Below, piece by piece: positions 34,299-60,665 of a DNA stretch of 64,000 nucleotides. A program made the position numbers and the translations under genes. Under the pieces are notes generated by a model. The model was not told the DNA's origin and searched no databases. It saw nothing but the letters and a program-made list of their open reading frames with translations. The DNA comes from Amycolatopsis viridis (lineage in GTDB: Bacteria; Actinomycetota; Actinomycetes; Mycobacteriales; Pseudonocardiaceae): assembly GCF_011758765.1 (NCBI RefSeq), contig NZ_JAANOU010000001.1:4216001-4280000 (forward strand), read 5' to 3'. Numbering within the stretch: position 1 is the stretch's first letter; every line of letters begins with the position of its first letter.

Positions 34299-35624
34299 TC
34301 ACTTTCCCCGGCGCACCACGGCGGGGCCGGACTGATCGGGGATCACCGCGGTGTCGCCGTCGGTGTCCGTGCGGGCGACGAGCGCACCGTCCGCGGTCAG
34401 GGTGTCGAGTGTCGTGCGGTTCGGGTGACCGTAGCGGTTGCCCGAACCGACGCTGACCAGCGCCAGCCGTGCGGACACCGCGGCGAGGAACTGTGGCAGT
34501 GAGAACCTGCTGCCGTGGTGCGGGACCTTGATGACGTCGGCGCGCACGTCTGCGCCCGAGGCGAGCAGGTCGGCCTGTGCGGCCAGCTCCACATCACCGG
34601 TCAGCAGCACACGGCCCGCCGGTGTAGCCGCGCGCAGCACGACCGAGCCGTTGTTGATCTGTGTTCCGTCGTCGTCCTCCTCTTCGGACACGTATCCGGG
34701 GCCCAGCACCTCCAGGGTCAGCGCGGGCCACTCGAGCCGCCGTCCCGGTTCCAGTTCGAGCAGGGGGACACCGTGGCGCGCCGCGATCTGGCCGACTTGC
34801 CGCCAGGCCCAGTCCGGCTGCCGGCCGGGCCCGACCGCGACCGCCCCGACCGTCCGACCCTCGAACACCGAGGCCAACCCGCCGATGTGGTCGGCGTGCA
34901 GGTGGCTCAACACCACCAGCGGCACCCGCTCGACCCCGAGCCGGTCCAGGCACCGGTCCACCGGGCCCGGCTCCGGGCCGGTGTCCACCACGATCGCTCG
35001 TCCCGGTTCCCCGGTGGCCAGCGCGAGGGCGTCCCCCTGACCGACGTCGCACGCCACGACCGTCCAGCGCGCCGGCGGCCACCCGGGCGCGATGACCTTG
35101 CCCGGCACGACGATCAGCAGCCCGCCGACCAGGATCAGCGCCAGCAGCACCCGCAGGCCCCGCCTCCGCAGGGCCAGCACCACGGCGGTCGCGACCACCA
35201 AGGCGAGGAAGCCGCCCCACCAGCCGCCGGGCCACGGCAGCACCGCTCCGGGCACCGCCGACGCCCGTCGAGCGACGACGATCAGCCACCCCGCCTCCGG
35301 ACCAGCCAGACGCGCAACCACCTCACCACCCGACGGCCACACGACGGCGACGAGCGTCGCGAGCACCCCGAACACCGTCGCGGAAGCGACCACGGGCGCG
35401 GCGAGCACGTTCGCCGCCACACTGACCACGCTCAGCTGCCCGGCCATGCCGGCCACCACCGGCGCGGTCACCACGAACGCCGCCGCCGGGACCGCGAGCC
35501 CTTCGGCGACACCCGCCGGAACTCCCCGGTGCTGGAGGACTTCCGCCCACCGCGGCGCCAGCAGCACCAGCCCAGCGGTCGCGATCACCGACAACGCGAA
35601 CCCGAAGCTCACGGCCATCGCCGG
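34299..35624 (-). pseudogene. comEC: comEC, 3' part (split by the prophage)
   Basis: This fragment encodes the C-terminal 442 codons of ComEC: the rear of the membrane competence domain (SFGFALSVIATAGLVLLAPRW onward) and the metallo-beta-lactamase-like domain with VLSHLHADHIGG and KVPHHGSRFS. It continues in frame, across the 15-bp core at 35610-35624, from the 5' part at 60651-61691. Joined, the protein is 783 residues, a normal ComEC size. An ATG inside the core (35618) could in principle start a separate protein lacking the first helices. ComEC is the inner-membrane channel for DNA uptake. Confidence 0.92.
35610..35624. other. attL core
   Basis: CACGGCCATCGCCGG here is identical to 60651-60665. 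Both copies lie at the point where comEC homology stops, and the bases beyond differ on each side, so this is the crossover core of the integrated element. Confidence 0.9.
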
Positions 35625-35728
35625 GGAAAGGTTCGCCTACCTGCGCGAATAGGGTCGATCACGGCCCTGAACAGGGCATTCGACGTTTACTGACGTTGGT
35701 CGGAGTTGAACGCTTTCGACTGTCGAAC

Positions 35729-35747
35729 GGAACAGAGACGGAACGGA
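35729..35747 (+). repeat. left integrase arm-type site candidate
   Basis: GGAACAGAGACGGAACGGA matches 60558-60576 at 18 of 19 positions in the same orientation. The copies are 105 nt and 75 nt inside attL and attR. Paired repeats just inside the cores are the usual layout of arm-binding sites for tyrosine integrases. Confidence 0.6.
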
Positions 35748-35881
35748 CCCAGCCCGCGATCACCCCGTCGCGGGTCCTGTACCTCCCATGCTGGCCGGCC
35801 TCGTTCCCGGATCCGGCCCACGAGCGGTGTGTAAATCCCGGCCACGCCCGAACGACCGTGGTGGAGTGCGAGTGGCCAGCC

Positions 35882-37099
35882 CTAACGGTCAGATGAGACG
35901 ACCCCGAAGTGCGCGGCGAGTCTCGCGAACTCCGGCCCGAGGCGGCGTGGTGCCCGCTCCAGCAAGCGGCGCATGACGGCCTCGCCCAGCGGCTGGGAGC
36001 GGGCCCAGTCGGGGGCGAGGTCGCGAGCTTCGGCTAGGTAGCGCAGCGCCTGCCTGTCCTGCCGTAGCTGGAGTGAGGCGGCGGCCAGCCGGAGCCGGTG
36101 GCCGGCCTCCCAGAACGCGGGGACCTCGCCGCGCGCCTCGGGCACGGACAGGGCCAGCTGGAGTGCCTTCTCTGGGTCCCCCGCCCGTGCGGTGCTGTCG
36201 ACGAGCTGGAGCGCGGCGACGCGGGGCCCGAAGATCGCGGCTTCACTAGCACTGTCGCTGCGCGCTCGCACTGCGGCTGCCTGCGCCTCGGCCAACAGGT
36301 CGTCCGCGCGCTCGGCCCGTCCGGCGGTGACGGCGGCGGTGGCCGCGTTGAATAGCAGGTTGCCGAAGATCCCGGCGCGTGTAGCGTCCCGGTCGAGCAT
36401 TGTGGGTTGGATCTGTTCCGCGGCCTTGACCGCGACCCGCTCGGCGTCGTCGAGCCGCCCCTGCCGGACCAGGGTCCACACGAGGTACCGCATGGAAATC
36501 GCCGTTTCCACGTGGGGCGCATCGGAGTGCCGGGCCGCGTCCAGTGCGCGCTCGGCCGAGGACCATGCCAGGTCGTCGAAGCCCATCCGTCCGGCCATCC
36601 CCGCGCCGAGTCGGTAGGCGGTGGAAAGCACGCGGTGCGCCCCAGCTTTCTCGTCGCCGTGTGCGGTGCGGGCCAGGCGGCGGGCGTCGACCAGCACCGT
36701 GGGCAGTGCGTGCAGCAGCTCGACATGCCGTCCATCGACGTAGGCCCGCCAGGTGCCGTGGGTGGTCTTCACGAGCTCGTCGAGCGGGACCACGTCCTGC
36801 GCCTCGGCGAAGTCCAGGCCGGGCAGGTCGTCGATTGCGGTGATCGCGTGCCGCAGCGGGGTCACAGCGAGGTCGGCGGCCCGGTGTGCGGGCGCGGTGC
36901 CGAGCAGGTCGGCGACGGTGACGCCCAGGGCGTGCGCGAGCTTGCGCAGGGTGTCCGGGCGCGTGGTGGTGCGACTGCCCTGCTCGATACGGGACACGGT
37001 GTCGACGCTGACCCCGGCGGCTTCGGCGAGCCGTTCCTGGGACAGGTCGCGGGCCTTGCGGTAGCGGGCCAGGTTCTCCGGCAGAGCGTGCCCGGTCAT
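35882..37099 (-). CDS. XRE-family helix-turn-helix protein with TPR-like domain
   Basis: A 405-residue regulator. The HTH (residues about 7-62: NLARYRKARDLSQERLAEAA, then VSVDTVSRIEQGSRTTTRPD) is followed by a helical repeat region of TPR character up to the end. Such HTH-TPR proteins in actinomycetes often respond to small signals. ATG 37099 has GGGGAGG 6 nt upstream. It follows the Nudix gene by 34 nt on the same strand, so the two form an operon at the left end of the prophage, separate from the lytic genes. A cargo (lysogenic-conversion) role is inferred. Confidence 0.82.
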   Translation of the reverse strand: MTGHALPENLARYRKARDLSQERLAEAAGVSVDTVSRIEQGSRTTTRPDTLRKLAHALGVTVADLLGTAPAHRAADLAVTPLRHAITAIDDLPGLDFAEAQDVVPLDELVKTTHGTWRAYVDGRHVELLHALPTVLVDARRLARTAHGDEKAGAHRVLSTAYRLGAGMAGRMGFDDLAWSSAERALDAARHSDAPHVETAISMRYLVWTLVRQGRLDDAERVAVKAAEQIQPTMLDRDATRAGIFGNLLFNAATAAVTAGRAERADDLLAEAQAAAVRARSDSASEAAIFGPRVAALQLVDSTARAGDPEKALQLALSVPEARGEVPAFWEAGHRLRLAAASLQLRQDRQALRYLAEARDLAPDWARSQPLGEAVMRRLLERAPRRLGPEFARLAAHFGVVSSDR

Positions 37100-37133
37100 G
37101 GTCGGCCTCCCCAAGCGGCGCGATGTCGGCTGA

Positions 37134-37628
37134 TCAGCCTAGGCCGTTGACGGGCTTGCCGCCCTCGCACAGCGCGAGACCACCCGAATGGACGGCTTCC
37201 AGTGCGACGGCGAGCCGGGCCAGCAGCGATGGCTTCAGCATCACCGTCGCCTCATCCAGCGAGTAGAGCCCGGCGAACAGGACCTCCGGATCGGTCAGCT
37301 CCAGGTCGGCCACTTGAGGCTCGCTTATCAGCCCGCCGTCGAAGATGAAGGCCAGGCCCTCGGGGAACCGGCCGTCGTCGCGCAGGTAGTCGATGACGAG
37401 TGGTCGGCCAATCGGTCGGGTCAGGCCAATCTCCTCCCGGACCTCTCGTGCGGCTGTGGTCCAGGGTGCTTCGTCGGCGTCGACCGCGCCGCCGGGAATG
37501 TCCCAGTGCGGCTTGTAGGACGGCTGGACGAGCAGCACCCGGTCTTCGCGGTCGTAGAACAGGACCCCGGCCGACATCCGCTTGCGGTTCAGGGAGCGCA
37601 CGTACTCGTCGAAGGGCACCAGGTCCAC
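37134..37628 (-). CDS. Nudix hydrolase
   Basis: A 164-residue protein with an intact Nudix box GX5EX7REUXEEXGU (GGAVDADEAPWTTAAREVRE, then EIGL) around residues 46-69, which binds Mg2+ and hydrolyses a nucleoside diphosphate linked to another moiety. The GTG start at 37628 lies 6 nt after a TAGCCT -10 element (37640-37635), implying a leaderless transcript. It precedes the XRE-TPR gene. In the Streptomyces element pSAM2 a Nudix protein (Pif) limits transfer, so a role in element control or exclusion is possible but unproven here. Confidence 0.85.
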   Translation of the reverse strand: MDLVPFDEYVRSLNRKRMSAGVLFYDREDRVLLVQPSYKPHWDIPGGAVDADEAPWTTAAREVREEIGLTRPIGRPLVIDYLRDDGRFPEGLAFIFDGGLISEPQVADLELTDPEVLFAGLYSLDEATVMLKPSLLARLAVALEAVHSGGLALCEGGKPVNGLG

Positions 37629-38289: not shown

Positions 38290-38475
38290 CTATTCGATGT
38301 GCTTGTTCGGCACGCGCCAGACGCCGTAGATCGTGGCGCCGGCGGCGACGAGCGCGGACAGGGCGGCCGGGAGTTCGCCGGCACCGATGACGTTGTCGGC
38401 GACGATCGGGGCGAGTGCGGTGCACAGGCCGCCGACCGCGGCGACGATCGCCTTCGCGGCGTTGCCGAGGTTCAC
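38290..38475 (-). CDS. small membrane protein, putative holin
   Basis: A 61-residue protein with two hydrophobic segments (KAIVAAVGGLCTALAPIVA and AALSALVAAGATIYGVWRV) and a short charged tail. It starts at GTG 38475, overlapping the endolysin stop (GTGA), as the last gene of the late operon. Size, topology and position fit an actinophage holin, which would let the endolysin reach the cell wall. No motif proves it. Confidence 0.65.
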   Translation of the reverse strand: MNLGNAAKAIVAAVGGLCTALAPIVADNVIGAGELPAALSALVAAGATIYGVWRVPNKHIE

Positions 38476-39254
38476 GCCGCATCACCCAGCTTCGCCAGCA
38501 CCTGGTCGACCTTGTTTCGCAGCTCGGTGAGCGCTGCCCGGTCCTCGAAGGTCCACTTCGCGGAGTCAAACACAATGTCGGCCAGGTTGGTCCGGTTCTT
38601 GTCCCCGTCGATGCGGGACGGCTTGTTGGCCAGCACCGCGTCGAGCAGGGTGCGGACCATGTCGACGAGGGTCTTGCTGCCGGCCGCGGTGGGCCAGCCG
38701 GGGTACTCGCCGTTCTTGAACGAGCCGGTGAGCTGGTTGTAGATGGCGTCGAGCTTGGCGCTCTGGTCGGGGGTCAAGTCGTCCTCCTCGGTGCCGGTGG
38801 TCAGGGCTGCGAGGACGGCGGCGCAGAACGCCTCGCCCTCGACGATCTCGAAATGCATGCCGTCCTTGCGGCCCGTGTAGTCCCCGCCCCACCGCACCGC
38901 GCCACGTGTCGCGGCGACGATCTCGCGGATGGTGCGGATCTGCGCCGCGCTGAAGTTCGCAGCCGGGTCGGTGCCGAGCGGGTGCCGGGTGGCGTTGGCG
39001 TCCGCCGCTGTGCCGCTGGCGTGGTTGGACAGCGTGGTGCTGCTGCCGCGGATGGTGCGTTCCGCATAGCCCCAGTCGTCCAGCTGCCCGTCGTCGAGAT
39101 CCTCGACCCGAGCGTGAAACTGGGCGAGCACCCACACCAGCAGCTCCCCGGCCGGCCCCTTGCGGAGCCGGATGGTCCGCGTCGTGCCGGGAACGGTGTA
39201 GACCTTGGTCAAGCTGATGTCGTTGGCGGTGTAGCCGTTCTGCGACTTCGCCAT
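38472..39254 (-). CDS. endolysin, M15 (D-Ala-D-Ala carboxypeptidase-like) peptidase
   Basis: A 260-residue lysin. The zinc motif SNHASGTAAD (SxHxxGxAxD) near residue 76 and the second histidine in GMHFEI near 140 identify a M15 peptidase, which cuts peptide cross-links of peptidoglycan. The C-terminal 100 residues are helical (TPDQSAKLDAIYNQL, then ALTELRNKVDQVLAKLG) and may anchor it to the wall. ATG has AGGAGGG 4 nt upstream. It lies between a coiled-coil membrane protein gene and the holin gene. Confidence 0.88.
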   Translation of the reverse strand: MAKSQNGYTANDISLTKVYTVPGTTRTIRLRKGPAGELLVWVLAQFHARVEDLDDGQLDDWGYAERTIRGSSTTLSNHASGTAADANATRHPLGTDPAANFSAAQIRTIREIVAATRGAVRWGGDYTGRKDGMHFEIVEGEAFCAAVLAALTTGTEEDDLTPDQSAKLDAIYNQLTGSFKNGEYPGWPTAAGSKTLVDMVRTLLDAVLANKPSRIDGDKNRTNLADIVFDSAKWTFEDRAALTELRNKVDQVLAKLGDAA

Positions 39255-40232: not shown

Positions 40233-40901
40233 CTAGTACGGCATGACCGTGAGTCGCCGGGACTGAAACTGAATGTTGTTGCCGTTGGCGCTGATGTACT
40301 TCAACCGGAACCGGTATTGACCGGGCGGAAGTTCGATCGTGTCGGTAACCATCACCGACGCTGCCGAGTAGACGTTCACCGCTGCTAGCTGTGCCGGGTC
40401 GAACGCGGTCGGGCCGACGCTGGTGGGGCCGGTGACCTCGACGCTGATTCCCCCGGTTTTCGACTGCGCGCCGCTGGCGTCGCACAAGATCATTCCGCCG
40501 TACGTCATCTGGACGCGGCCGTTGCAGTAGGTCGTCACGTCCGGCCCCACAGTGGCCAGGTCGGTCCACGAAGTCGACGAGGTGCTCTCGCTAGTGCCGA
40601 CGCGGGCCGTGGCTAGGCGAAGCCCGGCGCCCCGCCCGGCCGCGCGGACGGCGCCGAGCACGAAATACTGGGTGCCGACACGGATGATGCCGACCACTTC
40701 GCCTTCTTCGATCCGCACCGTGTTGTTCGACGCGAGCAACGGCAGGTTCGAGAAGATGTTGCCGTTGATCCGCACCGAGTTGAGCCCGGTGAGATCGTCC
40801 CAGGATTCGATAACACCCGTGTGCCAACCGATGTTGCTGTTACCGTTGGCCTGTTGCTGCATTCCCGCAACCATCAAAGCCGCGATCTCATCGGCTCTCA
40901 C
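40233..40901 (-). CDS. minor tail / baseplate protein
   Basis: A 222-residue protein starting at GTG 40901, which overlaps the previous stop (GTGA). The N-terminal half is OB-like (VRINGNIFSNLPLLAS, VRIEEGEVVGIIRVGTQYFV) as in tail-hub spike adaptors, and the C-terminal half is a beta-sandwich. It lies between the DUF5047-like tail protein and the fibre gene. Exact role unknown. Confidence 0.6.
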   Translation of the reverse strand: MRADEIAALMVAGMQQQANGNSNIGWHTGVIESWDDLTGLNSVRINGNIFSNLPLLASNNTVRIEEGEVVGIIRVGTQYFVLGAVRAAGRGAGLRLATARVGTSESTSSTSWTDLATVGPDVTTYCNGRVQMTYGGMILCDASGAQSKTGGISVEVTGPTSVGPTAFDPAQLAAVNVYSAASVMVTDTIELPPGQYRFRLKYISANGNNIQFQSRRLTVMPY

Positions 40902-42010
40902 AACGCACCTCCGAGGATCTGTTCGCGGGTAGTGGCCTGCATGACTCCGCCGGCATCGAGTGGCACGGTCAGCGTCTGGATCACGTGCCGCTCGGCGGTG
41001 AGCCGGTTCGCGTAGGACAGCTCGATGGGGTCGAGCGGCTCGAGCGCGACGTTGGGCACCATCGAGAAGTCGACGTTGTACGGGAGACCGAGCTGCCGCG
41101 CGAGCATCGCGTCGGCTGCGGCCTGGGCCTGCTCGGTGGTGGTGATGAACGTCGAGCTGTAGAACTTCGGGACCTTGCCGAACGGGCCGTTCCAGTAGGT
41201 CGGGCTGTTCGGGTTGAGGTCGTAGGCCACAGCCCGCACGGGCGGGGTTTCCCCAGCCTGCTCGCCGGTAGCGACGACCGCGTTGTAGACCCCGTCCCGC
41301 TTCAGCCGGCGCGCGACGCTGGCGACGACCCCGTCGCGGCCGTGGTTGACGGTGAACACCGGCACGGTCGGGTCCGGCGCGGTCTCCACCCGCAAGCGCC
41401 CGGCGTAGTCCCAGTACATGACCTTGCCGAGGCTGTCGGCGATGTCCTTGAGGAAGCTGTACCGGTCGTCCTCCAGCACGTGGCTGGACGGGAACGTGGT
41501 GGCGCCGGCGTCGAAGTCGAACAGGATGATCGCGCCGGGGTAGACCTCGCCGACAAGGAAGTTGAAGATCGCCGCGACGGATGTGCCGGCGCCGAACTCC
41601 ATCGGCGCCAGGGGGCGGGCGTCGATAATCCCGGACATCCGGTCGCGCCCGTCGAGCTGGATTTGCCCGTCTGGCGCGTTGGGCTGGTCAGTCTCGTACA
41701 TGCGGAAGTAGCCCTGCGAGACCCACTCGGTGCCGCCGTCGCCGTACACGATGCCGCGCTCCACGAACAGCTCGTTGCCGTAGGGCGTGAGCAGCCCGCT
41801 CGCGCTGGTGGGGAACTCCCACTCCGTGGTGAGGTCAAGGGTCGCGCGGATCTCGGCGGTGGCGTCGAGCTTCACGTCCCCGGCCACGATCGGGATCTCC
41901 ACCCCGACGGGGTCGACGCCGGTCTGTCCGGGCGCGCACACGCGGGCGCGGGAGGCCATCGCGTGCGAGCCGCGGACGGTGGCGAGGAAGCGATCGGACA
42001 CGGGCCTCAT
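40898..42010 (-). CDS. tail protein, DUF5047-like
   Basis: A 370-residue tail-hub protein. Its N-terminus MRPVSDRFLATVRGSHAMAS and the stretch VPVFTVNHGRDGVVASVARR are typical of actinophage proteins grouped as DUF5047, encoded after the tape measure. Its ATG overlaps the upstream stop (ATGA). It would form part of the distal tail or baseplate. Confidence 0.7.
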   Translation of the reverse strand: MRPVSDRFLATVRGSHAMASRARVCAPGQTGVDPVGVEIPIVAGDVKLDATAEIRATLDLTTEWEFPTSASGLLTPYGNELFVERGIVYGDGGTEWVSQGYFRMYETDQPNAPDGQIQLDGRDRMSGIIDARPLAPMEFGAGTSVAAIFNFLVGEVYPGAIILFDFDAGATTFPSSHVLEDDRYSFLKDIADSLGKVMYWDYAGRLRVETAPDPTVPVFTVNHGRDGVVASVARRLKRDGVYNAVVATGEQAGETPPVRAVAYDLNPNSPTYWNGPFGKVPKFYSSTFITTTEQAQAAADAMLARQLGLPYNVDFSMVPNVALEPLDPIELSYANRLTAERHVIQTLTVPLDAGGVMQATTREQILGGAL

Positions 42011-43404
42011 GGCACGATCACGTCCGTGGGGTCGGCGATCCGGTCGAGCACGTCGGCGTAGGTCGGCTCGGCCGCGATCAGCGCGGTGTAGCTGGTGAAC
42101 GCAGTGAGCAGGTCGGCGTAGAGCACGGTCTGGCCGACGATCGTTCCGGCCGGCGCGGCGACCTCGGTCAGGGGCAGGTCGAAGAACCGGCGCTTGGTGC
42201 GCTTGGAGTGCCGGTCCATCGTGATGTCGCCGATAACGTAGTAGCCGCCCGGGAACGGGGCGCCGGCCGGGACGTGCAGCAGCACCGGTTCCCCGGTGGA
42301 GAGGCACAGGTCCAGATCCGCGGCCGCATCGAGGTCCACGGCGGTGATGGTGAGTGTGTATCGCCGCGACCCGCGCAGGTCTGTCACGGCGACCGGGAGC
42401 GAGCGGGAGATCACGTCGATGACCCCGGCGCGGGCCGGGCGCGTGATCGCCGACCAGTCGGTGACCGTGACCGCCCGGTTCAGGTAGGGCCGCTGCAGGT
42501 TTTTGATCCACGCCACCTGAATGTTCGGGGTGGTGCTGGCCGTGTCGCGGGTGACGTAGGCAGCTTTCTGGAAGGTCAGCAGCGTGGCCTTGGACACCGC
42601 GGCTGCGCCGCCGGTGACGATGACGTTTCCGGCGGGGACCGAGGTGGGGTAGGCGGCCAGGAACACGAACGTGCTGTCGCCGGAGCCCTGCGCGTTGCTG
42701 ACCCGGGTCACGTCGACGAACCCGGCGGGGGTGCCCCATCCGGTGTGTTGCGCCTGCTTCCAGGCGAACAGCACGGTCAGCCGATCGTTGCTGCCGCCCG
42801 CGGTGATGGCCGGATAGGCGACGTTCTGCGCCGAGGCGTTGTTCTGCCACACCGACACCGCCGGCAGCAGCTCCGCGTTGCGCAGCGCCCACACCACCGC
42901 GGTAGTCGAGTCGCCGGCAGCGCCGCCGGTGAACGTGACCGTCGGCGCCGCGTCGCCGGGCAGGTAGCGGCGGCCGAACACGGCCGTGCTGCCGGTGGTG
43001 TGCACCGCGGTCCAGCCGGCCGGAGCGACCGGCGCCGCCGCGGTGTTGCGGATCGTGGCGAAGGCCAGCAGCAGATCGCCGGCGGTGATGCCGCTCGGCA
43101 GCGCGGGCGTCAGGGCCGTGTTGTTCCCGGTGACCGGGCCGCCCGGGGTGAGCCCGACGGACGTGACCGCCCCGCTGTCCACGTAGGAGGCGCGGTAGTA
43201 GTTCGGCACGCCGGCCGCAAACTCGTAGTCATCCAGCTGGCCGGCGCCGCTGGACAGCGGCACCGTGTCGCCGCCGCGGACCGTGGCCCAGGTGATCTGG
43301 TCGGTGCTGCGCTCGATGAGCGCGTAGTCGGCCTGCGCCGGGGCGCCGGTGATGGCGAGCCGGACGCGGGACAGGTCGTCGGCGTAGGTCGCGGTCAGGG
43401 TCAT
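42007..43404 (-). CDS. minor tail protein
   Basis: A 465-residue beta-rich protein directly after the tape measure gene, with fibronectin/Ig-like sections (GVPNYYRASYVDSGAVTSVG near residue 65; AGWTAVHTTGSTAVFGRRYL near 125) and a C-terminal domain like distal tail proteins (VTVTDWSAITRPARAGVIDV near 315). Its ATG overlaps the tape measure stop (ATGA). The position suggests the distal tail (Dit-like) component. Confidence 0.65.
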   Translation of the reverse strand: MTLTATYADDLSRVRLAITGAPAQADYALIERSTDQITWATVRGGDTVPLSSGAGQLDDYEFAAGVPNYYRASYVDSGAVTSVGLTPGGPVTGNNTALTPALPSGITAGDLLLAFATIRNTAAAPVAPAGWTAVHTTGSTAVFGRRYLPGDAAPTVTFTGGAAGDSTTAVVWALRNAELLPAVSVWQNNASAQNVAYPAITAGGSNDRLTVLFAWKQAQHTGWGTPAGFVDVTRVSNAQGSGDSTFVFLAAYPTSVPAGNVIVTGGAAAVSKATLLTFQKAAYVTRDTASTTPNIQVAWIKNLQRPYLNRAVTVTDWSAITRPARAGVIDVISRSLPVAVTDLRGSRRYTLTITAVDLDAAADLDLCLSTGEPVLLHVPAGAPFPGGYYVIGDITMDRHSKRTKRRFFDLPLTEVAAPAGTIVGQTVLYADLLTAFTSYTALIAAEPTYADVLDRIADPTDVIVP

Positions 43405-45416
43405 CTTGCGGCTCCCACTCCGGCCGTCAGCGCTCGGCGCATCTGCCGGTTGTCCCGGTCGGTCTTGATCCGGAACACCTCGGTGATGCCCTCGCTGAGG
43501 TCCAGGTGCAGCTTGATCACCTGCGCCTCGGCGCCGCCGCCGATCGCCTCGGCGGTGGTGTTCGCGTTCGTCACCCGCCCGGTCCGGCCCGGCGTGAACA
43601 GCTCCGGCCCGCGCTCACCGACGAGATAGGACTGGCCGGCCCGGGCGGTGCCGCCCTTGGCCAGCATCGGAATGTGCGGGATCGCCGGGATCCCGACGAC
43701 TCCGGTCACCGCGTTGACCCCGCTGATCGCGCCGTTGACCACGCGGATCACGGCGTTGATCGCCGACTTGGCCGCGCCGGAGATTCCGGACCACACCGAC
43801 CCGGCGAAGTCGGCCAGCCCGGAGAAGAACCCGCGCACCGCGTTGACCGAGTTGTTCCAGGCGTTGCGGAAGAAGTCCGCCACGCTCGACACCGCGCCGC
43901 GAATGCCGTTGAACACGCTGCCGAAGAACGAGCCGACGCCGCTGATCGCGCCCTGGATCCACGAGAAGACCGCGGCCCACACCCCGCGGAACCAGTTCAC
44001 CACCGCGGTGATCACGTCGGAGACGAACTTCCACACGGCGGCCCACACGCCGCGGAAGAAGTCCAGGTTCTGAACGATCAGCACGATGATCGCGATCAGC
44101 GCCGCGATGCCGGCGATGATCAGCCCGATGGGGCTGGCGGCCATGGCGGCGTTGAGCGCCCACTGCACGACGGTGTAGGCGGCGACCGCGGCCTTCCACA
44201 GATTCACCGCAGCGGTGACCGCCTGGATCCCCAGCGCGAGCCCGCCGACGGCGATGGCCAGTGGGCCGATCCAGGTCATGTTCTGCGCCAGGAACGTCGC
44301 CAGCCCCTGCAGCAGCGGCCCCAGCAGCTGGATCGCCGGCACGAGGAAGGACGCAACCTGCGTAGCCAGCTGCGCGAAGGCATCGAGCAACGCCGGCAGC
44401 GCCGGGGCGATCGCCGTCAGCGCCGCACCCAGCACGCCCGACACCGCATGCCCCACGGCGGCGACCGCCTGGGCCAGGGCGACGATCGCGTCGTGCCCCT
44501 GTGCGGACTCCAGGAAGGCGCGCACCTGCTTGGCGAGCGGGCCGAGCACCCCACCCAGCCCCACACCGGCGTCGGACAGCGCGTCGAACACCGCGCCGAC
44601 GATGCCGCCGATGTCGCCGAGGATCGCGAACAGCTCACGGAACGCCTCGATGGCGGTCCGGATCCACTGCTCGATGTTGCCGGTGTCGGCCATCCGCTGC
44701 ACCCAGGCGTTGAACCGCTCGCCCGCGGCGCCCAGCCCGGCAGTCAGCTCGACCAGGATCGGCGCCGCCACCGCGCCCACGCGCGAGAACCCGGCGACCA
44801 CCGGCGCCAGGAACGCGCCGATGTTCTGGATCAGCCGCGCCGTGGCGGACAGGATCGTGTTCACCTGCCCGACCGCGGCCGGCGTCTTCAACCACGCGGT
44901 GACCTTGGTGAGCACCCCGCCCATCGCGGTCGCGATCTGCTGGAAACCCGAGGTCAGCTGCGGCAGCGTCACGCGCAGGTTGTTCACCGCCGGCGCCAGC
45001 GACTTCTCGAACGACGCCGACACCTTGGACTTCAGCGTGTCCAGGGTCGGCGTCAGCTGGTCGAACGCGCGCTTGATCCCGTCCGCGCCGAGCTTCACCG
45101 CGACCATGGCGGCGGCCGCGCCCAGCATCACCGCGGGTACCAGCCCGGCCGCGCCCGACATCGCGACGAACGCCGACGCCAGCGCCAGCACCACGCCGAT
45201 ACCGCCCGACAGCTGCGAGAGCACCAGCGCGCCGCGGCCGGCCGCGGCCCACGCCGCCCCGACCGCCGAGGTGAACTTGCCGAGGTTCTTCCGGTTGGTC
45301 TCCGTCTGCTTCTCCAGCGCGCGCAGCTCGGCCATCGCAACACCGGTCGCCGCGACGAGCCCCTTCGCGGAGCCGTCGAACTTGATCCTGATCGTGCGCG
45401 TGCCCGTGGCCGCCAT
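43401..45416 (-). CDS. tail tape measure protein
   Basis: A 671-residue protein that sets tail length and travels with the DNA. The N-terminus is helical, the middle has strongly hydrophobic segments (IGLIIAGIAALIAIIVLIV near 450) followed by tryptophan-rich repeats (FRGVWAAVWKFV, then FRGVWAAVFSWI), and the C-terminus holds the family stretch LAKGGTARAGQSYLVGERGP. Its start overlaps the preceding stop (TGATG). At 671 residues it implies a short tail of roughly 100 nm by the usual 1.5 A per residue rule. Confidence 0.9.
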   Translation of the reverse strand: MAATGTRTIRIKFDGSAKGLVAATGVAMAELRALEKQTETNRKNLGKFTSAVGAAWAAAGRGALVLSQLSGGIGVVLALASAFVAMSGAAGLVPAVMLGAAAAMVAVKLGADGIKRAFDQLTPTLDTLKSKVSASFEKSLAPAVNNLRVTLPQLTSGFQQIATAMGGVLTKVTAWLKTPAAVGQVNTILSATARLIQNIGAFLAPVVAGFSRVGAVAAPILVELTAGLGAAGERFNAWVQRMADTGNIEQWIRTAIEAFRELFAILGDIGGIVGAVFDALSDAGVGLGGVLGPLAKQVRAFLESAQGHDAIVALAQAVAAVGHAVSGVLGAALTAIAPALPALLDAFAQLATQVASFLVPAIQLLGPLLQGLATFLAQNMTWIGPLAIAVGGLALGIQAVTAAVNLWKAAVAAYTVVQWALNAAMAASPIGLIIAGIAALIAIIVLIVQNLDFFRGVWAAVWKFVSDVITAVVNWFRGVWAAVFSWIQGAISGVGSFFGSVFNGIRGAVSSVADFFRNAWNNSVNAVRGFFSGLADFAGSVWSGISGAAKSAINAVIRVVNGAISGVNAVTGVVGIPAIPHIPMLAKGGTARAGQSYLVGERGPELFTPGRTGRVTNANTTAEAIGGGAEAQVIKLHLDLSEGITEVFRIKTDRDNRQMRRALTAGVGAAR

Positions 45417-47502: not shown

Positions 47503-47855
47503 GCGAACACCGGTCCCCGGTACTTGCCGATGCCCAGCAGCCGCTCGATGTCCGGATCGAACGAAGGCACCCGGGCGGAACCGAGCTCGGGCCCCATCGT
47601 GACGAGCGCGTCCGGCGACCGGCGGCGGGTGTACCACCGCTCGGCCAGCCGGATCGTGCCCAGCACGAGGTCGGGCCCCGGCTTGGGCCGCGGGTCCAGC
47701 ACGTCCTCGGTGTAGTCGATGTCCGACCGCACACGCTCGACGAACGCCACCGCGGCGTCGAGCTGCGTCTGCAAGAGCTCGTCGTCGCGGTCGTCGGTCG
47801 GCTCGAGCTTCTTGTCGAGCTTCAGCTCCACGAGCGTGGGCGGCCAGGACATCAT
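47499..47855 (-). CDS. head-tail connector protein
   Basis: A 118-residue mostly helical protein (LVELKLDKKLEPTDDRDDEL, then LLQTQLDAAVAFVERVRSDI) of the gp6-like DNA-packaging/adaptor type that fills the ring below the portal. It overlaps both capsid stop and next gene start, and follows the major capsid gene directly. Confidence 0.7.
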   Translation of the reverse strand: MMSWPPTLVELKLDKKLEPTDDRDDELLQTQLDAAVAFVERVRSDIDYTEDVLDPRPKPGPDLVLGTIRLAERWYTRRRSPDALVTMGPELGSARVPSFDPDIERLLGIGKYRGPVFA

Positions 47856-50129: not shown

Positions 50130-50280
50130 GGTCGGGCTCCTTCACGTACCGCCACCCTGCCTCGTGGTGGACCTGGCACACGCCAAGATCCTCCAGTTCA
50201 CGTTCTGTGCACCCGTCCACGATGCACTCCGCGTGCACGGTCCTGGGCTTGCCGGCCGGTTTGCGTGGCTTGCTGGTCAT
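50122..50280 (-). CDS. small Cys/His protein between portal and protease
   Basis: A 52-residue basic protein with a possible zinc site (ECIVDGCTERELEDLGVCQV then HHEAG). ATG 50280 overlaps the portal stop (ATGA), and its own end overlaps the protease start. Similar tiny zinc-ribbon-like genes occur in actinophage head operons; role unknown. Confidence 0.6.
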   Translation of the reverse strand: MTSKPRKPAGKPRTVHAECIVDGCTERELEDLGVCQVHHEAGWRYVKEPDHD

Positions 50281-51711: not shown

Positions 51712-53241
51712 TCACACCACGCCGAACCACGGCGCGGGTTGCTCCTCGGGCAGGGTCAGGACGGTGTGCACCGCGCCCGCGGCGGCGTAGGCGGCGTCCA
51801 CGTGGCCGGCACCACGACGGACGAAGCGCCACCCGTCGCCCTGGTAGTACTTCGACGCCCCGGCGATGTGGGCGTCCAGCAGCGGGTCGCCGGGGTGGAT
51901 CACCCGGCGGGCGCGGACGAGGTCGGCTAGGCCCTGGCAGGCCTCGGCCACCGCGGCGCCCTTGATCTCGACCCACTCCGGCCAGGACCGCAGCAGCGGC
52001 GCCAGCGCGGCCGCAGGGCCGGACGGGAACCAGGCGCCGGCCTTGGGCTGGTACTCCTCGCGCAGCGCGGGCAGCTCGGCGCGCGCGGCCTCGGTGGAGT
52101 CCCACGCCTCGACGACCTCGACGCGCACCACCCCGGCGACCTCGCCCGCGGCGAGCAGCGCGACGTGTTTGCCATCCGGGGCCACGTCCAGGCACAGCAC
52201 GATCCGGTCCTGCACGGCGTCGAGGGTCATGCTCGCGTCCCGGCACGCTTTCCAGGCGGCGAGGTCTACCGCGCCGTCGAGCTGGTCGACCTTCTGGGAC
52301 AGCACCTCGGTGCGGAACACCTCGGGCGGGTCGGTCGCCAGTGCCGACCGGATCGCGGTGTGGGAGAGCGTGCGGCCCAGCGCCGGGTTCGCCTGCGCCC
52401 ACGCCTGCTCGTCGTCCAGCTCGCACCCCTCCGGGGCCGACCACTCGAACAGGGCGATCGACTCGTCGCGCGCATCGCCCATGACGGCCACCCCGTCGCC
52501 GCCGTCGCCGACGCCGGCTGCGGCCCGCAGGTGGTTGAGGACCACCGACTGATCGTCACCGGCGTTGCTCAGCGCCCAGATCTGCCCGTTCGCCCGGGCC
52601 ATGATGGTCTTCGACAGCGACGACCAGGCCGCCCAGTCACGCTGCTCGCGCACCTCGTCCAGCGTGAGGTGATCCACCGACAGCCCGCGGCCGGCCGACC
52701 GGTTCGACGCCTTGATCAGGTAGCGGCGGCCGCCGTCGAGGTTCAGCGACTCCTTGCCGTTCGCGGTGAGGTAGCTCAGCTTCTCGTCGGCCAGCTCGGG
52801 CACCTCGTCGACCGACTCGTTCGCCTTGTCCAGCACCTCGCGCGCGATGCCGAGGTCCTGCGCGGCGCCGAGCACCAGGCGCGCGCCGTCAATGAACAGG
52901 CGCCAGAGCGCCAGCACCTTCGACAGGTGGGTCTTGCCGTTCTGCCGCGCCACGATCGCCAGCACCGTCCGGAAGCGGAAGGTGCCCTCCGGCAGCAGCT
53001 CCAGGCCGTGGATCACCGCGAACTCCTGCCACGGCAGCAGCGGCTCACCGAGCACCTCGCGGGCGAAGTCGATGACCTCGTACCCGCGGGTCGTCTTGCG
53101 GGTCAGCGGGCGCAGCGGCGGCGTCCATAGCCGCGGCTCGGTGCGGCCGAGGAGCTTCTTACACGGCGCGGCTTTCCCGGATCGCCGCGAGCTTGCCGCC
53201 GCGCTGGCCACGTACCCCACCACCCTTCGCGGCAGCAGCAC
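51712..53241 (-). CDS. terL: terminase large subunit
   Basis: A protein of up to 509 residues that pumps DNA into the prohead and cuts it. The ATPase has a deviant Walker A VARQNGKT near residues 97-104 and Walker B LTLDE near 192; the C-terminal nuclease region includes VLCLDVAPDGKHVALLAAG near 355. The start is uncertain: the reading shown begins at GTG 53241, with other in-frame GTG codons down to 53211, all inside the small terminase gene; no start exists after the overlap. The 50-80-nt overlap implies coupled translation. Confidence 0.88.
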   Translation of the reverse strand: MLLPRRVVGYVASAAASSRRSGKAAPCKKLLGRTEPRLWTPPLRPLTRKTTRGYEVIDFAREVLGEPLLPWQEFAVIHGLELLPEGTFRFRTVLAIVARQNGKTHLSKVLALWRLFIDGARLVLGAAQDLGIAREVLDKANESVDEVPELADEKLSYLTANGKESLNLDGGRRYLIKASNRSAGRGLSVDHLTLDEVREQRDWAAWSSLSKTIMARANGQIWALSNAGDDQSVVLNHLRAAAGVGDGGDGVAVMGDARDESIALFEWSAPEGCELDDEQAWAQANPALGRTLSHTAIRSALATDPPEVFRTEVLSQKVDQLDGAVDLAAWKACRDASMTLDAVQDRIVLCLDVAPDGKHVALLAAGEVAGVVRVEVVEAWDSTEAARAELPALREEYQPKAGAWFPSGPAAALAPLLRSWPEWVEIKGAAVAEACQGLADLVRARRVIHPGDPLLDAHIAGASKYYQGDGWRFVRRGAGHVDAAYAAAGAVHTVLTLPEEQPAPWFGVV

Positions 53242-55033: not shown

Positions 55034-55422
55034 GCTGCTCCTTCCAGTTCGGGTAGTCGCTTGCCGCCGGCCCACGCCTCGAGGGCGCGGTCCGTAGCTT
55101 CGCGAATGTGGGTGCGGCGCCATTCAATCTCCGCGCGCGGGTCGTCGCCCAGTTCGCGTGGCGGGACGAGGTCGACGCTGAACAGCTTGGACGAGATCTC
55201 GCGCCGGAGCTGTTCGAGGGTGTCGGTGATGTGCGCGGGCTTGATCCGGGGCCGGTCGCCACCGCGCTTGTGGTACTCGATCACGGCGCGGCGGGCGAGC
55301 GGGAAGGTCCAGCCCTCCTCGACGGCGACCGTGCGCCAGGCGACCACGTCGGCCTCGCCGACGGTGCGCTGGTCGTAGGCGGCGATGAGGGTGAGCAGGT
55401 CGATGGTCTCGTCCGGGGTCAT
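55030..55422 (-). CDS. phage replication-associated hypothetical protein
   Basis: A 130-residue helical protein (MTPDETIDLLTLIAAYDQRT; VAVEEGWTFPLARRAVIEYH; IKPAHITDTLEQLRREISSK). Its ATG overlaps the stop of the replication initiator (ATGA). Proteins of this kind following an initiator with a winged helix are often helicase loaders or DnaT-like partners; that role is inferred from position. Confidence 0.6.
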   Translation of the reverse strand: MTPDETIDLLTLIAAYDQRTVGEADVVAWRTVAVEEGWTFPLARRAVIEYHKRGGDRPRIKPAHITDTLEQLRREISSKLFSVDLVPPRELGDDPRAEIEWRRTHIREATDRALEAWAGGKRLPELEGAA

Positions 55423-56366
55423 CTGAGGTCTCCTGTCGGGAGCTGCAGCACGTTCGCGCCGTTGCTGGCGAGCCGGGCCTTGAGCGCCTGAGCGGCGGCG
55501 ACGCGCTGATCTGTTGTGGACGGCCGGTCGCCGGCCGATGCATGGCCTTCGAGCTGCTCGATGGCGTTGAGCAGGGTCTGGCGGGTGAGCGGCTTGTTGC
55601 GCTGGTGGGTGGCCATGTGCCGGAGCGCGTCGAACACCTGCTGCTCGGTGAAGGTGTTGAGCGCGTGCCGGACCACCTCGCGGACGGCCATGAACTTGAC
55701 CTGCTTGCGCATGGCCTCGTAGTAGCGCGTGGCGAGGTCGTTGGCGGCCTTGTCCTTGGCCGGGTCCTTGCCGCCGCGCTTGGTGGCGGGCAGGGGCTTC
55801 ACGACGGCGAGTTCGACCCCGGGGCTGTCCGGCGCAGGCGCCTCGGCGCCTGCCCTCTCCAGAGGTACCGGTTCATTACCGGTTCCCTTACCGGTTCTCG
55901 GCGGTTCTGAGTGCGTGACGTTGGCACTTAAAGTGCGTGACTCGGGATTTTGAGTGCGTGACATGGTGTCCTCGTGCGGATTTTGAGTGCGTGACGCCCT
56001 GGACTTGCGTTGCCGCTCGGCTGCCTTCGCGCGGGACTCCTCGACCTCGCGATCGATGGCCTCCCGATCGCTGTCCGGCCGCCGCAGCGCGGTGTTGAGC
56101 CGGTAGATGGTCACGTCGCCGCGCGTGCCGACGGCGGTGATCACCCGGGCTGCGGCGAGCCGGTCGAGGACGCGCTGGATCACCCTCCGGTCCAGGCCGG
56201 TCTTGTAGCGGATGGTGGCCAGCGCGAGGAACGCCTGCGGCGGCGTCCCTCGCGCGGCCTCAGCGAGGGCGACCAGGACAAGCCGGGCGGTGGTGTCGTG
56301 CTTCCCGGCGGGCGTCTGCAGCATCGGTGCCTGGTTCAGCGCCCACTCCACGGCCTGCCAGCTCAT
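55419..56366 (-). CDS. phage replication initiator-like protein (winged helix)
   Basis: A 315-residue protein with an N-terminal winged helix (residues about 1-95: HDTTARLVLVALAEAARGTP, then YKTGLDRRVIQRVLDRLAAA), a charged linker and a C-terminal DnaD/RepA-like helical region (ATRYYEAMRKQVKFMAVREV). The linker, around residues 120-180, is encoded by iteron-like DNA repeats, which gives repeated SRTQNP peptides. This is the layout of lambda O, where the origin lies inside the initiator gene. ATG has AAGGAAA 7 nt upstream. Confidence 0.72.
   Translation of the reverse strand: MSWQAVEWALNQAPMLQTPAGKHDTTARLVLVALAEAARGTPPQAFLALATIRYKTGLDRRVIQRVLDRLAAARVITAVGTRGDVTIYRLNTALRRPDSDREAIDREVEESRAKAAERQRKSRASRTQNPHEDTMSRTQNPESRTLSANVTHSEPPRTGKGTGNEPVPLERAGAEAPAPDSPGVELAVVKPLPATKRGGKDPAKDKAANDLATRYYEAMRKQVKFMAVREVVRHALNTFTEQQVFDALRHMATHQRNKPLTRQTLLNAIEQLEGHASAGDRPSTTDQRVAAAQALKARLASNGANVLQLPTGDLR
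55866..55995. repeat. iterons: candidate prophage replication origin
   Basis: TGAGTGCGTGAC occurs at 55908-55919, 55951-55962 and 55984-55995, and AAAGTGCGTGAC at 55930-55941, all direct (starts 22, 21 and 33 nt apart). Beside them TACCGGTTC repeats at 55866-55874, 55877-55885 and 55889-55897. The repeats are inside the initiator gene and coincide with less GC-rich DNA. Confidence 0.65.
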
Positions 56367-57523: not shown

Positions 57524-58005
57524 CGGGCACCGCCAACAAGCGCGCATGCCTCAGCCGCGGCGGCGGCGAAACCGTCGTCGTCGCCCATCAACCGGGCGGC
57601 CTCGGCGAACAGGTCGCGGGCCTTGCGGATGCCGTCGAGGTCGAGTTCGACGACCTCGGCCCAGCCCTCGATGGCCAACACCGCGTGGGTCGTCGGCTCC
57701 GGGTCCGTCGCGGACACCTCGAGCACCAACGGCGCGTCCGGGCGCGGGTCCTCGTCGATCAGGTCGTTCGCCAGCACCGGAATGATCCCCAGCTGGCGGG
57801 AGTGCCACACGCCTTGATCAGTAGGCGCGTGACGGCTGGCGTCGTCACACCACGCGGGGTGTGAGCAGGTCACGGCAGGTGTTAACGTGCGTTCGGGCAT
57901 CTGGATTTCCTTCCGGGTGTTCGCAGCGACGGACGGCCCGACCTGTGCCGGCAAGCTGTGGATCGGGTCGTTCGTCGACGTGTTGATGGTGATCGTGTCG
58001 TTCAT
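57520..58005 (-). CDS. hypothetical prophage protein
   Basis: A 161-residue acidic protein starting at ATG 58005, which overlaps the excisionase stop (ATGA). An internal ATG at 57900 (MPERTLTPAVTCSHPAWCDD) has a much better ribosome binding site (AAGGA, 6 nt), so a 126-residue form is likely made. It contains HPAWCDD and HAVLAIEGWAEVVELDLDGI, typical of small actinomycete proteins often annotated as hypothetical. Function unknown. Confidence 0.6.
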   Translation of the reverse strand: MNDTITINTSTNDPIHSLPAQVGPSVAANTRKEIQMPERTLTPAVTCSHPAWCDDASRHAPTDQGVWHSRQLGIIPVLANDLIDEDPRPDAPLVLEVSATDPEPTTHAVLAIEGWAEVVELDLDGIRKARDLFAEAARLMGDDDGFAAAAAEACALVGGAR

Positions 58006-58217
58006 GCGGCGCCGTTCTGGGCGGCAAGCTCCTGGTCGAAACGCTCGACCTCGGCGAGTGGGTAGAGGACCTTGCGGCCCACCTTCACACCCTTGGGCCC
58101 GTAGCCGATCATGCGCCAATAGCGCACGGTCGACTCAGCGGTCCGGTACCGCTCCGCCAGCTCGGCGGTGACGAGGTACTCGGCCTGCTGCCCGCGAGCC
58201 CCATGCTGTTGGGTCAT
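58002..58217 (-). CDS. xis: excisionase-like MerR-type HTH protein
   Basis: A 71-residue protein with the AlpA/excisionase-type winged helix: VTAELAERYRTAESTVRYWR, then GYGPKGVKVGRKVLYPLAEV. Such proteins bend attachment-site DNA and steer the integrase to excision, and some also regulate transcription. ATG has GGAGATGAAGG upstream. It is the first gene of the minus-strand early operon, divergent from the repressor. Confidence 0.82.
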   Translation of the reverse strand: MTQQHGARGQQAEYLVTAELAERYRTAESTVRYWRMIGYGPKGVKVGRKVLYPLAEVERFDQELAAQNGAA

Positions 58218-58234
58218 CCTTCATCTCCATCAGG

Positions 58235-58308: not shown

Positions 58309-58314
58309 CGTGTC

Positions 58315-59316
58315 GTGAAGGACCAACGCGAGCCAACGCCAGTGGAGCGGGTAGAGCGGATCTTCGCGCAGCGCCTCCGGGAACTTCGAGCAGAACGTGA
58401 CCTCTCGCAGGCCGCCCTCGCGAAGCAGCTGCAGGAGCACGGGCTACAGCTTGACGATCTGGCAATCCTGCGCATCGAGAAGAACGAGGAGGACCCCCTG
58501 AAGGGCCGCCGGGTCCGGCTCGGGGAAGCCACTGTCATCGCGCAGGCACTCGGGGTGCGTCTCGACGAAATGCTGCAAGAAACGAAGTCGCCCGAGCTGA
58601 GGCGAGCAATGATCGAGGCTGAACTGGCCCACGCTCGAGCCTCCTGGAGGTCGGCGATCGACCAAGAGCAATCTGCTCACGAAAGGCGCCTGGAGTGGCA
58701 CCGGAAGGTTCTGGAACTTGAAAGCCTATCGGCGAAATTGCAGCCTGGTGAAAAGATTCCTGAACTGCCGGGCGAGATTTACGTAGACCGGGCAACTGGC
58801 CTCAACATTCCCGTAGGGAATCTTCGCAGCGGAAACTCGATCACAATTCCAATGAAGAATGTTCTGAAAAAGACGCTTACCGAGGTGGCCGACGGCCTAA
58901 TAAAGGATCCATTCTGGATCGAGGTGCACTACAGCGGTCGCGTCGGAACGCACATCGACCTCGGCGCGGCGGAACTCCGCCGTCGTGCAGTGCTACGACT
59001 CCCAGCCAGCGCATACCGTCGACGCCGCAACATCGACAAGAACATCGCTTCGAAGATTGCAAGTCATGCGTCGTCAATGAACGTCCCTCGGCTGGACATT
59101 CCGAATCTGGACGCGCTCCAGAAGCGGCTGATCGCCACGTCAAAGAACTTTCTGGAAATTAAGCTTGAGATCGCCAAGATTTCCGACAATGATCCAGCCT
59201 TCCCCGATGCGTCAGACGCATTTCGAGAATTATTCCGACAGTTCCTCTCGGCCGTCGAATCGTACGCTTATCAGCTATTCCTTCACGTGGACAAAGTAAA
59301 GCAGGCACAGGTATAG
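58315..59316 (+). CDS. prophage repressor-like XRE protein
   Basis: A 333-residue protein whose N-terminus is an XRE helix-turn-helix (RLRELRAERDLSQAALAKQL near residue 18, continuing to about 80). The rest is a long helical middle part (RSAIDQEQSAHERRLEWHRK) and a C-terminal region I do not recognise; no LexA-type protease site is evident. GTG 58315 is chosen because the -10 lies 6 nt upstream (leaderless); a longer frame begins at 58168. From about 58.7 kb the gene is clearly less GC-rich than its surroundings, which suggests distant acquisition. The integrase follows after 2 nt. Confidence 0.75.
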   Translation: MKDQREPTPVERVERIFAQRLRELRAERDLSQAALAKQLQEHGLQLDDLAILRIEKNEEDPLKGRRVRLGEATVIAQALGVRLDEMLQETKSPELRRAMIEAELAHARASWRSAIDQEQSAHERRLEWHRKVLELESLSAKLQPGEKIPELPGEIYVDRATGLNIPVGNLRSGNSITIPMKNVLKKTLTEVADGLIKDPFWIEVHYSGRVGTHIDLGAAELRRRAVLRLPASAYRRRRNIDKNIASKIASHASSMNVPRLDIPNLDALQKRLIATSKNFLEIKLEIAKISDNDPAFPDASDAFRELFRQFLSAVESYAYQLFLHVDKVKQAQV

Positions 59317-59318
59317 AC

Positions 59319-60566
59319 GTGGGTTACACAAAAGATCTGTGGACGCGCCCGGAGGAGCAGCCCGACGGCAAGGTCAAGCGGGTGCCGAACGCGCGCTGGG
59401 GCAAGGGCAAGCGGTGGTTGGCGTGCTGGCTGGACCCGGACGGGAACGAGCGCACGAAGGCGTTCGCCACGAAGACACCGGCGGACAAGTACTGGCGGGA
59501 CATGGAGTCCGCACGTGACCGTGGCGAGTACCACGATCCGAAGGCCGGCCGGAAGCTGTTCGGCGACCTCGCGCAGGCATGGTTCGAGGCTCTCGCCGTG
59601 GATCCCGCGACTCGGATCCGCACCGAGCAGGTGCTGCGCCTGCACGTCCTGCCGACCTTCGGTAAGCGGCAGCTCAAGGCGATCCAACCCTCGGAGATCA
59701 ACACGTTCCTGGCCAAGCTCAGCGAGACCCACGAGTGGGCCACCAGGGCGAAGGCCCTCGGGATCCTGCAGGGCGTGCTCGACCTGGCCGAGGCGGACAA
59801 CCTGGTCAAGAAGAACGTAGCGAAGTCAAAGGTGATCCAGCGGGTCAAGCCGACGTTCGAGAAGGTTGAGGCGTGGAGCGACGAGCGCGTGTTCGCCCTG
59901 ATCGATGCCCACCCCGACGAGTACCGGCTGTTCCCGATCATCGCGGCGACGTGCGGGCTGCGCGCCGGCGAGCTGTTCGGGCTCGCCCTCGAAGACATCG
60001 ACTTCGAGGACCAGGTGATCCACGTCCGCCGGCAGCTCAAGCGCATCGGCAAGCACCACGTGTTCGCGCTGCCCAAGAACGACCAGGAGCGCGATGTGCC
60101 GCTGGCCAACTGGACGGCAGAGAACATCCGCCTGCACGTCGAGAAGTACCGGCCGCGGCCCTGCTCGCTGCCCTGGGAGAAGCCGGACGGCCCGCTGCGG
60201 GCGCACAACATCCTCTTCCGGTGGCATGACGGCGGGTTCGTGAAGGACCGCAACTTCTCTGAGGAGGTGTGGAAGCCAGCAGCGCACGCCGCCGGCATCA
60301 TCGGGCCGCCGGTGCCCAAGCAGCGCGGGCAGCTTCGCTACAACACGACCGGCAAGGAGGGCCCGCACCAGCTGCGGCACTACTACGCTTCGGTGACGCT
60401 CGCGGACGGCGTGAACATCAAGGAGCTGGCCGAGTACCTCGGGCACCACGACCCGAGCTTCACGCTCAAGCAGTACGCCCACATGCTGCCCGACTCCCAT
60501 GATCGGGCTCGCGAGGCAGTCGACCGGAGGATGTTCCGGCCGCGCCTGGTTGCTGGCGGAACATAG
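59319..60566 (+). CDS. int: tyrosine recombinase integrase
   Basis: A 415-residue phage integrase. An N-terminal arm-binding region (about 1-60), a SAM-like core-binding domain (about 65-150) and the catalytic domain with Arg215 (CGLRAGELFG), His350 and Arg353 (HQLRHYYAS), His376 (GHHDPSFTLKQYAH) and nucleophile Tyr386 are all intact. It starts at GTG 59319, 2 nt after the repressor, so both are co-transcribed. It lies 84 nt from the attR core. The antisense comEC reading frame runs through it and is a shadow created by the insertion. Confidence 0.95.
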   Translation: MGYTKDLWTRPEEQPDGKVKRVPNARWGKGKRWLACWLDPDGNERTKAFATKTPADKYWRDMESARDRGEYHDPKAGRKLFGDLAQAWFEALAVDPATRIRTEQVLRLHVLPTFGKRQLKAIQPSEINTFLAKLSETHEWATRAKALGILQGVLDLAEADNLVKKNVAKSKVIQRVKPTFEKVEAWSDERVFALIDAHPDEYRLFPIIAATCGLRAGELFGLALEDIDFEDQVIHVRRQLKRIGKHHVFALPKNDQERDVPLANWTAENIRLHVEKYRPRPCSLPWEKPDGPLRAHNILFRWHDGGFVKDRNFSEEVWKPAAHAAGIIGPPVPKQRGQLRYNTTGKEGPHQLRHYYASVTLADGVNIKELAEYLGHHDPSFTLKQYAHMLPDSHDRAREAVDRRMFRPRLVAGGT

Positions 60567-60576
60567 ACGGAACGGA
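60558..60576 (+). repeat. right integrase arm-type site candidate
   Basis: GGAACATAGACGGAACGGA overlaps the integrase stop region and matches 35729-35747 at 18 of 19 bases in direct orientation. Confidence 0.6.
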
Positions 60577-60650
60577 GCCTCCCGTGGCAAGGACCGCGAA
60601 GGGTCGGAATGCAGGTCAAAACCGCTTCGAGCGGGCTGGAACCCGTAGAC

Positions 60651-60665
60651 CACGGCCATCGCCGG
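60651..60665. other. attR core
   Basis: CACGGCCATCGCCGG, identical to 35610-35624. In comEC it encodes the conserved D-P-A-M-A-V stretch, where Pro-Ala-Met-Ala-Val are specified by the core on both sides. Confidence 0.9.

Follow-up and report, generated by a model that had tools for sequence, protein, structure and literature searches.

The gene for the DNA-channel protein ComEC is split in Amycolatopsis viridis by a 25-kb prophage that lies between two exact copies of a 15-bp attachment core. The split is located in a stretch of 64,000 nucleotides (contig NZ_JAANOU010000001.1, positions 4,216,001 to 4,280,000), which was analysed as a whole and is called the window here. PHROGs and Pfam profiles assign the insert to a siphovirus prophage that looks complete and encodes a tyrosine integrase. 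Within the actinobacterial order of the host (Mycobacteriales), four motifs of comEC are sites at which the gene is split, the enzymes involved being a tyrosine integrase and large serine recombinases of several lineages. The findings as a whole are very probably best explained by the insertion of a siphovirus through its tyrosine integrase at an in-frame core of comEC, reversible in appearance, with the gene being hit repeatedly across the order. Prophages in comEC have precedents in print; the new element of the finding is that comEC is a recurrent multi-site target in this order. In the mechanism we propose, a temperate siphovirus would have used its tyrosine integrase to integrate into the 15-bp stretch of comEC encoding PAMAV and would have cut ComEC into front and back parts. 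The lysogen would lose DNA uptake, and the prophage would be able to excise precisely and restore the gene.

A search of the window finds the 15-bp core at positions 35610-35624 and 60651-60665 (forward strand), with a spacing of 25,041 bases. There is no third exact copy in the window, and four further places match with two mismatches (chance mean of 1.28 for up to two mismatches). Pairs of random 100-base segments from the window shared a 15-mer in one of 2000 trials. On the minus strand, the right copy ends the 5' part of comEC (60651-61691, 347 codons including the core) and the left copy begins the 3' part (34299-35624, 441 codons and the stop), which encodes the remainder of the Competence domain and a metallo-beta-lactamase domain. 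Joining the flanks 60666-61691 (342 codons) and 34299-35624 (442 codons including the stop) yields a ComEC of 783 amino acids with no internal stop, in which the core encodes codons 343-347 (PAMAV). Both the splitting of the gene through the core and its in-frame rejoining had been proposed in an earlier note on this DNA, and both are borne out; across the complete 5.68-Mb one-contig genome the Competence profile PF03772 matches at the two comEC pieces only. Divided into a 347-residue front and a separate back, ComEC is almost certainly non-functional in the lysogen. Judged from the sequence, precise excision could regenerate the gene. An ATG at 35618-35616 of the 3' part falls within the left core, and a simple scan of positions 35500-36000 finds neither a promoter nor a terminator. 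A transfer RNA (tRNA) gene as attachment site is unsupported in the window, where the sole tRNA gene lies at 25029-25102.

The empty site is present in the sister genome G008, which harbours the identical 15 bases in an unbroken comEC whose protein is 96% identical. The earlier note had named a decayed comEC in relatives lacking the prophage as an argument against its reading. This argument does not apply in the genus, where the gene is in one piece in 18 of 18 other genomes (the match in G011, which lies at a contig end, covers the protein from residue 62 onwards). The prophage interrupts the reading frame of a competence gene that relatives carry undamaged, a feature of the mobile elements disrupting competence genes described in PMC4774983. 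G008, G003 and G001 share the core without a mismatch; eight genomes differ from it at one base, five at two, one at three and one at five. The split gene contains no stop or frameshift. Its ratio of non-synonymous to synonymous substitution rates (dN/dS) is 0.165 relative to G008 (0.173 and 0.158 for the halves) and 0.151-0.250 relative to five other relatives.

To map the recurrence we used 390 genomes of the family, Pseudonocardiaceae, with a comEC search threshold of 1e-10, which gave a ComEC match in 383. Twenty-nine genomes were searched again: each of the 23 that had two matches, five whose matches were weak, and G225, one of the seven that had given none. In at least four further genomes (G155, G160, G204 and G270) comEC is in two pieces that lie on the same contig, separated by 14-40 kb. 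All four splits map to around codons 253-264, i.e. to the motif THLxAVSGxN. A large serine recombinase with Resolvase and Recombinase domains adjoins the 5' piece in G155, G204 and G270, while that of G160, 61% identical to the one of G155, adjoins the 3' piece. In G388 and G193 comEC is broken at the same motif between contigs, again with a recombinase beside the 5' piece, and in both genomes the 3' part of the gene harbours a further large serine recombinase, at KVPHHGS (locus L148, 11929-13443 of the reverse complement, in G388; locus L146, about 1697-3145, in G193). The remaining 3' fragment of comEC is found 9.4 kb further on in G388 and on another contig in G193.

An order-wide sample of 363 genomes, family members among them, extends this pattern. 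Outside the family 23 genomes have at least two comEC pieces, and nine of these were examined. G614, G664, G516 and G618 (L198, L200, L201 and L202) each have a single insert, 7-14 kb long, that encodes a large serine recombinase, and G605 has an insert with no recognised recombinase. At the 5' motif, ten serine recombinases occur in all, with pairwise identities of 27-67%; the break lies slightly upstream, at THL, in G193, G614 and G618 and after AVSG in the other seven. A quick tree of 13 sequences, unrooted and with local supports of 0.70-0.97, places the serine recombinases of three capsid relatives outside comEC (G329, G283 and G120) among the comEC ones. As at least four rows (G155, G160, G270 and G614) carried extra leading residues of their open frames, the tree gives only a hint of independent gains.

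The integrase of the window (59319-60566, forward strand, 415 amino acids) contains a Phage_integrase domain with R215, K253, H350, R353, H376/H377 and Y386 in place, which we take to be the catalytic residues. It is thus intact in appearance, as the earlier note had stated, and domain, residues and direct-repeat core are together the features of site-specific integration by a tyrosine integrase. The excisionase of that note is a probable one. The candidate is a 71-residue HTH_17 protein (58002-58217, minus strand), encoded divergently from the regulator-integrase pair, which scores 25.7 bits against a Pfam cut-off of 27. As its relatives adjoin the related integrases of G119 and G144 (63% identity over 60 residues and 55% over 62), and weakly that of G097, the name excisionase is reasonable, not proven. 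Directly upstream of the integrase gene lies a putative lysogeny regulator (58315-59316, forward strand; weak repressor match for a longer frame from 58168), with partial relatives beside the related integrases of G144 and G231. A 23-base repeat with 21 identical bases, located 103 bp inside the left core (35728-35750) and 71 bp inside the right core (60557-60579, overlapping the end of the integrase gene), may provide arm sites for the integrase. An exact 12-mer common to both prophage ends occurred in 7 of 2000 shuffles, and by eye similar GACGGAA repeats lie just downstream of four related integrases.

An integrase of this type was not found in comEC elsewhere, as the gene is absent from the stretches of 16-19.5 kb around six relatives, four of full length (G231, G097, G119 and G144, 54-56% identity) and two partial (G352, 65%; G207, 49%). 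Scans of genome contigs and viral contigs gave integrases with 21-25% identity. In phage records the best among the matches listed reach 24-28%, and all 461 records stay below 60%. Surroundings of 29 related integrases, taken as 35 stretches and mostly with only 1.5 kb of flank, contain no tRNA gene.

Relatives of the capsid protein (E value of at most 1e-40) are present in 17 of the 390 family genomes, i.e. in that of the window and 16 others. The prophage of G160 is related to that of the window in its structural genes (80% identity for the capsid, 78% for the protease, 69% for the portal, 65% for the tail, 56% for the tape measure and 46% for the terminase), and splits comEC at another site with an unrelated recombinase. 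The prophage of G015 is very near (98% for the large terminase subunit, 92% for the endolysin), and comEC of its host is intact. It has no match to the integrase of the window at an E value of 1e-5; a 418-residue frame is integrase-like by eye only. Because this relative has no matching integrase and leaves comEC intact, the phage type is not bound to the gene. The viral contig L156 is likewise very near (large terminase subunit 98%, a tail protein 92%, capsid 74%), and the part examined shows no match to the integrase of the window, to comEC or to the serine recombinases that served as queries.

Two further capsid relatives deserve mention for their genomic setting. In G156 a relative of the phage is present in the chromosome (C1) and as an identical separate contig of 39.9 kb (C2), either an excised form or a redundant contig (L185, L186, L193-L197). 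C2 (39,949 bases) was considered as excised phage and rejected: 39,948 bases align to the chromosome contig with 100% identity as a single block without permutation, which proves no circle. In G124 (L181, L182), a genome of one or two contigs, the capsid relative is found some 17 kb away from one end, and the start of comEC is at base 79 of that contig; the prophage may be a neighbour of comEC across the contig ends.

Prophages in comEC have been described in Streptococcus pyogenes (Phi1207.3 and Phi10394.4, PMC4288039) and in Variovorax paradoxus VAI-C, where the siphovirus VAI-C_pp_2 with a tyrosine integrase occupies the ComEC/Rec2 gene (PMC9658991). These printed cases weaken the suggestion of the earlier note that the arrangement in the channel gene is itself novel. 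By description, VAI-C_pp_2 resembles the prophage of the window as a siphovirus with a tyrosine integrase and a short core (16 letters) in comEC; it differs in its proteobacterial host and its core, and is a table entry without a study of the gene (PMC9658991). The streptococcal prophages share the location within comEC and differ, again by description, as larger, resistance-carrying phages of a Firmicute (PMC4288039). Interruptions of the same gene by transposons, transposable elements or a cassette are on record for Piscirickettsia (PMC12955456) and, through citations in PMC12637031 and PMC4774983, for pneumococcus; the window shows a site-specific integrase and an in-frame core.

Mobile elements also split comYC, comFA, comM and comK at fixed sites, with convergent insertion into comFA by divergent integrases (PMC4774983; PMC12637031). 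In contrast to these other genes and lineages, the present case concerns the channel gene in an actinobacterial order, with four motifs and both tyrosine and serine recombinases. The SpST71A prophage of Staphylococcus pseudintermedius is likewise site-specific in a competence gene, namely comG (PMC7029219). A close precedent is the site-specific pneumococcal prophage phiBM6001.3, whose precise excision restores comGC in about 3% of cells, with no transformants obtained (PMC10383233). There the gene is another one and excision has been measured, while the prophage of the window is known from sequence alone. The Listeria comK prophage is reported to excise without lysis. It also resides in a competence gene that excision would restore (named in PMC4774983). 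In contrast to comEC, comK is a regulator gene, and regulated excision is reported for Listeria, while the prophage of the window is only predicted to be able to excise.

In actinobacteria the transformation machinery was first studied in Micrococcus luteus, in which deletion of comEC abolishes transformation (PMC4322843). A literature search covering mostly titles and the beginnings of abstracts, in a collection without many journals, revealed no site-specific element in an actinobacterial comEC and no multi-site pattern, and a term search in an actinobacterial prophage survey (PMC10023795) gave no word beginning with comE. If elements repeatedly aim at comEC, this would be indirect evidence of DNA uptake that operates in these bacteria and is harmful to the elements. 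Recombinases that cut one gene at four motifs also constitute a natural set of site-specific integration systems.

The recurrence at comEC may be either neutral or favoured by blocking the removal of elements through transformation. There is about an even chance that the targeting is neutral, with recombinases choosing conserved coding DNA and comEC being dispensable and rich in conserved motifs, so that insertions survive. In conservation, the core exceeds 95.9% of the 15-bp segments of comEC; for 30-bp segments AVSG ranks above 88-90% and PHHGS above 84%, and for 45-bp segments only above 76-79% and 53%, respectively. As the core and, less clearly, the other motifs sit in conserved DNA, target conservation may explain part of the pattern. 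The neutral reading is further supported by the lack of tRNA genes in the mostly short stretches around the related integrases and by the location of most capsid relatives outside comEC. Neutral targeting fits less well with four motifs being struck by divergent recombinases, with two recombinases in one gene in two genomes, and with the control gene lepA (LepA, 616 amino acids), which is more conserved than comEC and, at a stricter search threshold, never occurs in two pieces, 388 of the 390 family genomes being matched in one piece each. That elements disabling DNA uptake are favoured, since transformation would otherwise delete them, is a serious possibility, if not the one we would wager on. 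Recurrent multi-site targeting by unrelated recombinases argues for it, as does the presence of the structurally related phages of the window and G160 in comEC by means of different recombinase families, and a model with precedents is given in PMC4774983 and PMC12637031. It would need hosts capable of natural transformation, and the near capsid relatives mostly leave comEC whole; neutral targeting may account for the same data. It is a tentative and rather unlikely extension that comEC is a battleground across the order, where unrelated elements repeatedly evolved recombinases aimed at conserved motifs because silenced uptake protects them. If true, natural transformation would be widespread, and costly to mobile elements, in actinomycetes that are mostly thought to be non-competent.

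With regard to the prophage itself, the earlier note had envisaged a phage-controlled competence switch. Such active lysogeny, in which lysis-free excision under some condition restores comEC and turns competence on before reintegration, as in Listeria comK, appears improbable. The exact in-frame core, the integrase with its probable excisionase and the comEC halves without stops are what it would need, and an arrangement resembling active lysogeny stands insofar as a complete-looking prophage could restore comEC by excision. Any intact prophage in a gene has such features, and regulated control is not supported, as no signal, excised form, competence phenotype or other feature tying excision to competence was found. 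Excision in the BM6001 pneumococcus restores comGC without restoring transformation (PMC10383233), and the near phage relative in G015 lacks an integrase match next to an intact comEC. Thus, the competence switch is a conjecture. An assembly artefact or dead remnant is hardly conceivable given the single contig, the exact core, the full gene set and the capsid relatives in 16 other family genomes, and nothing was found in its favour. Several observations weigh against the explanation we prefer, that of a site-specific, reversible-looking insertion into a repeatedly hit gene. No excision has been seen. Among the seven nearest capsid relatives (51-81% identity) only G160 has a split comEC, and the gene is in one piece in the capsid relatives G124, G158, G015, G156, G120 and G329. 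The dN/dS of 0.165 lies at the top of the range for seven pairs excluding the host (0.096-0.169). Of the amino-acid changes, 17 belong to the host branch and 8 to the sister branch, while 10 are ambiguous (two-sided p of about 0.11). Together this hints at a possible mild relaxation of the split gene, with no decay. The lepA control consists of one gene, whose loss is possibly costly, searched at 1e-60 compared to 1e-10 for comEC. Under the stricter threshold, two pieces would have appeared in no more than three of the five genomes with a single-contig comEC split (the genome of the window, G155 and G160), as the second pieces score 2.0e-60 in G204 and 7.1e-39 in G270.

A number of genomes with fragmented matches were not accepted as insertions. 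In G028, G197, G239, G259, G297, G299, G300, G310, G315, G335, G345 and G386 the coordinates indicate gaps, frameshifts, contig breaks or separate short fragments, and in G432, G444 and G459, which are outside the family, the comEC pieces are neighbouring. The one-contig genome G661 (L203), likewise outside the family, matches comEC only at residues of about 9-207 and 711-781, and the gene is apparently decayed with no large insert. Counted neither way were G287, G198, G313 and G605, the 3'-end fragments in G190, G192 and G318, and the weak partial matches in G305, G334 and G337. Between the two comEC pieces of G270 a tRNA-Pro gene is found at 9314-9406 of L143.

The prophage of the window combines in one element the genes for head and portal, terminase, tail and tape measure as well as those for lysis and integration, the holin being only a candidate. 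An integrative conjugative element, considered in view of a NUDIX gene and the 25-kb size, is ruled out by the virion genes. Reading towards the 3' part of comEC on the minus strand is a helix-turn-helix-type transcriptional regulator with a weak TPR match (35882-37114). Profile matches on the same strand identify the NUDIX hydrolase (37134-37628), an endolysin (Peptidase_M15_4, 38472-39254), a tail protein (40898-42892, matched over residues 289-659 of the frame), a tape measure protein of 671 amino acids (43401-45416), the major tail protein (46718-47149), a head-tail connector (47499-47855), the major capsid protein (47855-49165), the head maturation protease (49305-50129), the portal protein (50277-51518), the large terminase subunit (51712-53241) and a replication initiation-like protein (55419-56366). 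A 61-residue protein with one hydrophobic stretch, encoded beside the endolysin (38290-38475, minus strand), is the candidate holin.

Directly upstream of comEC lies a comEA-like gene (61688-62548, minus strand), which scores below the cut-off of TIGR01259 and above that of TIGR00426. In the lysogen the front frame of comEC stays open for 274 codons more, antisense through the integrase gene, before a stop at 59826 (59826-61691, minus strand). Long antisense open frames are common in GC-rich DNA. Judging from this arrangement, transcription of comEA and comEC may run antisense to the integrase gene in the lysogen.

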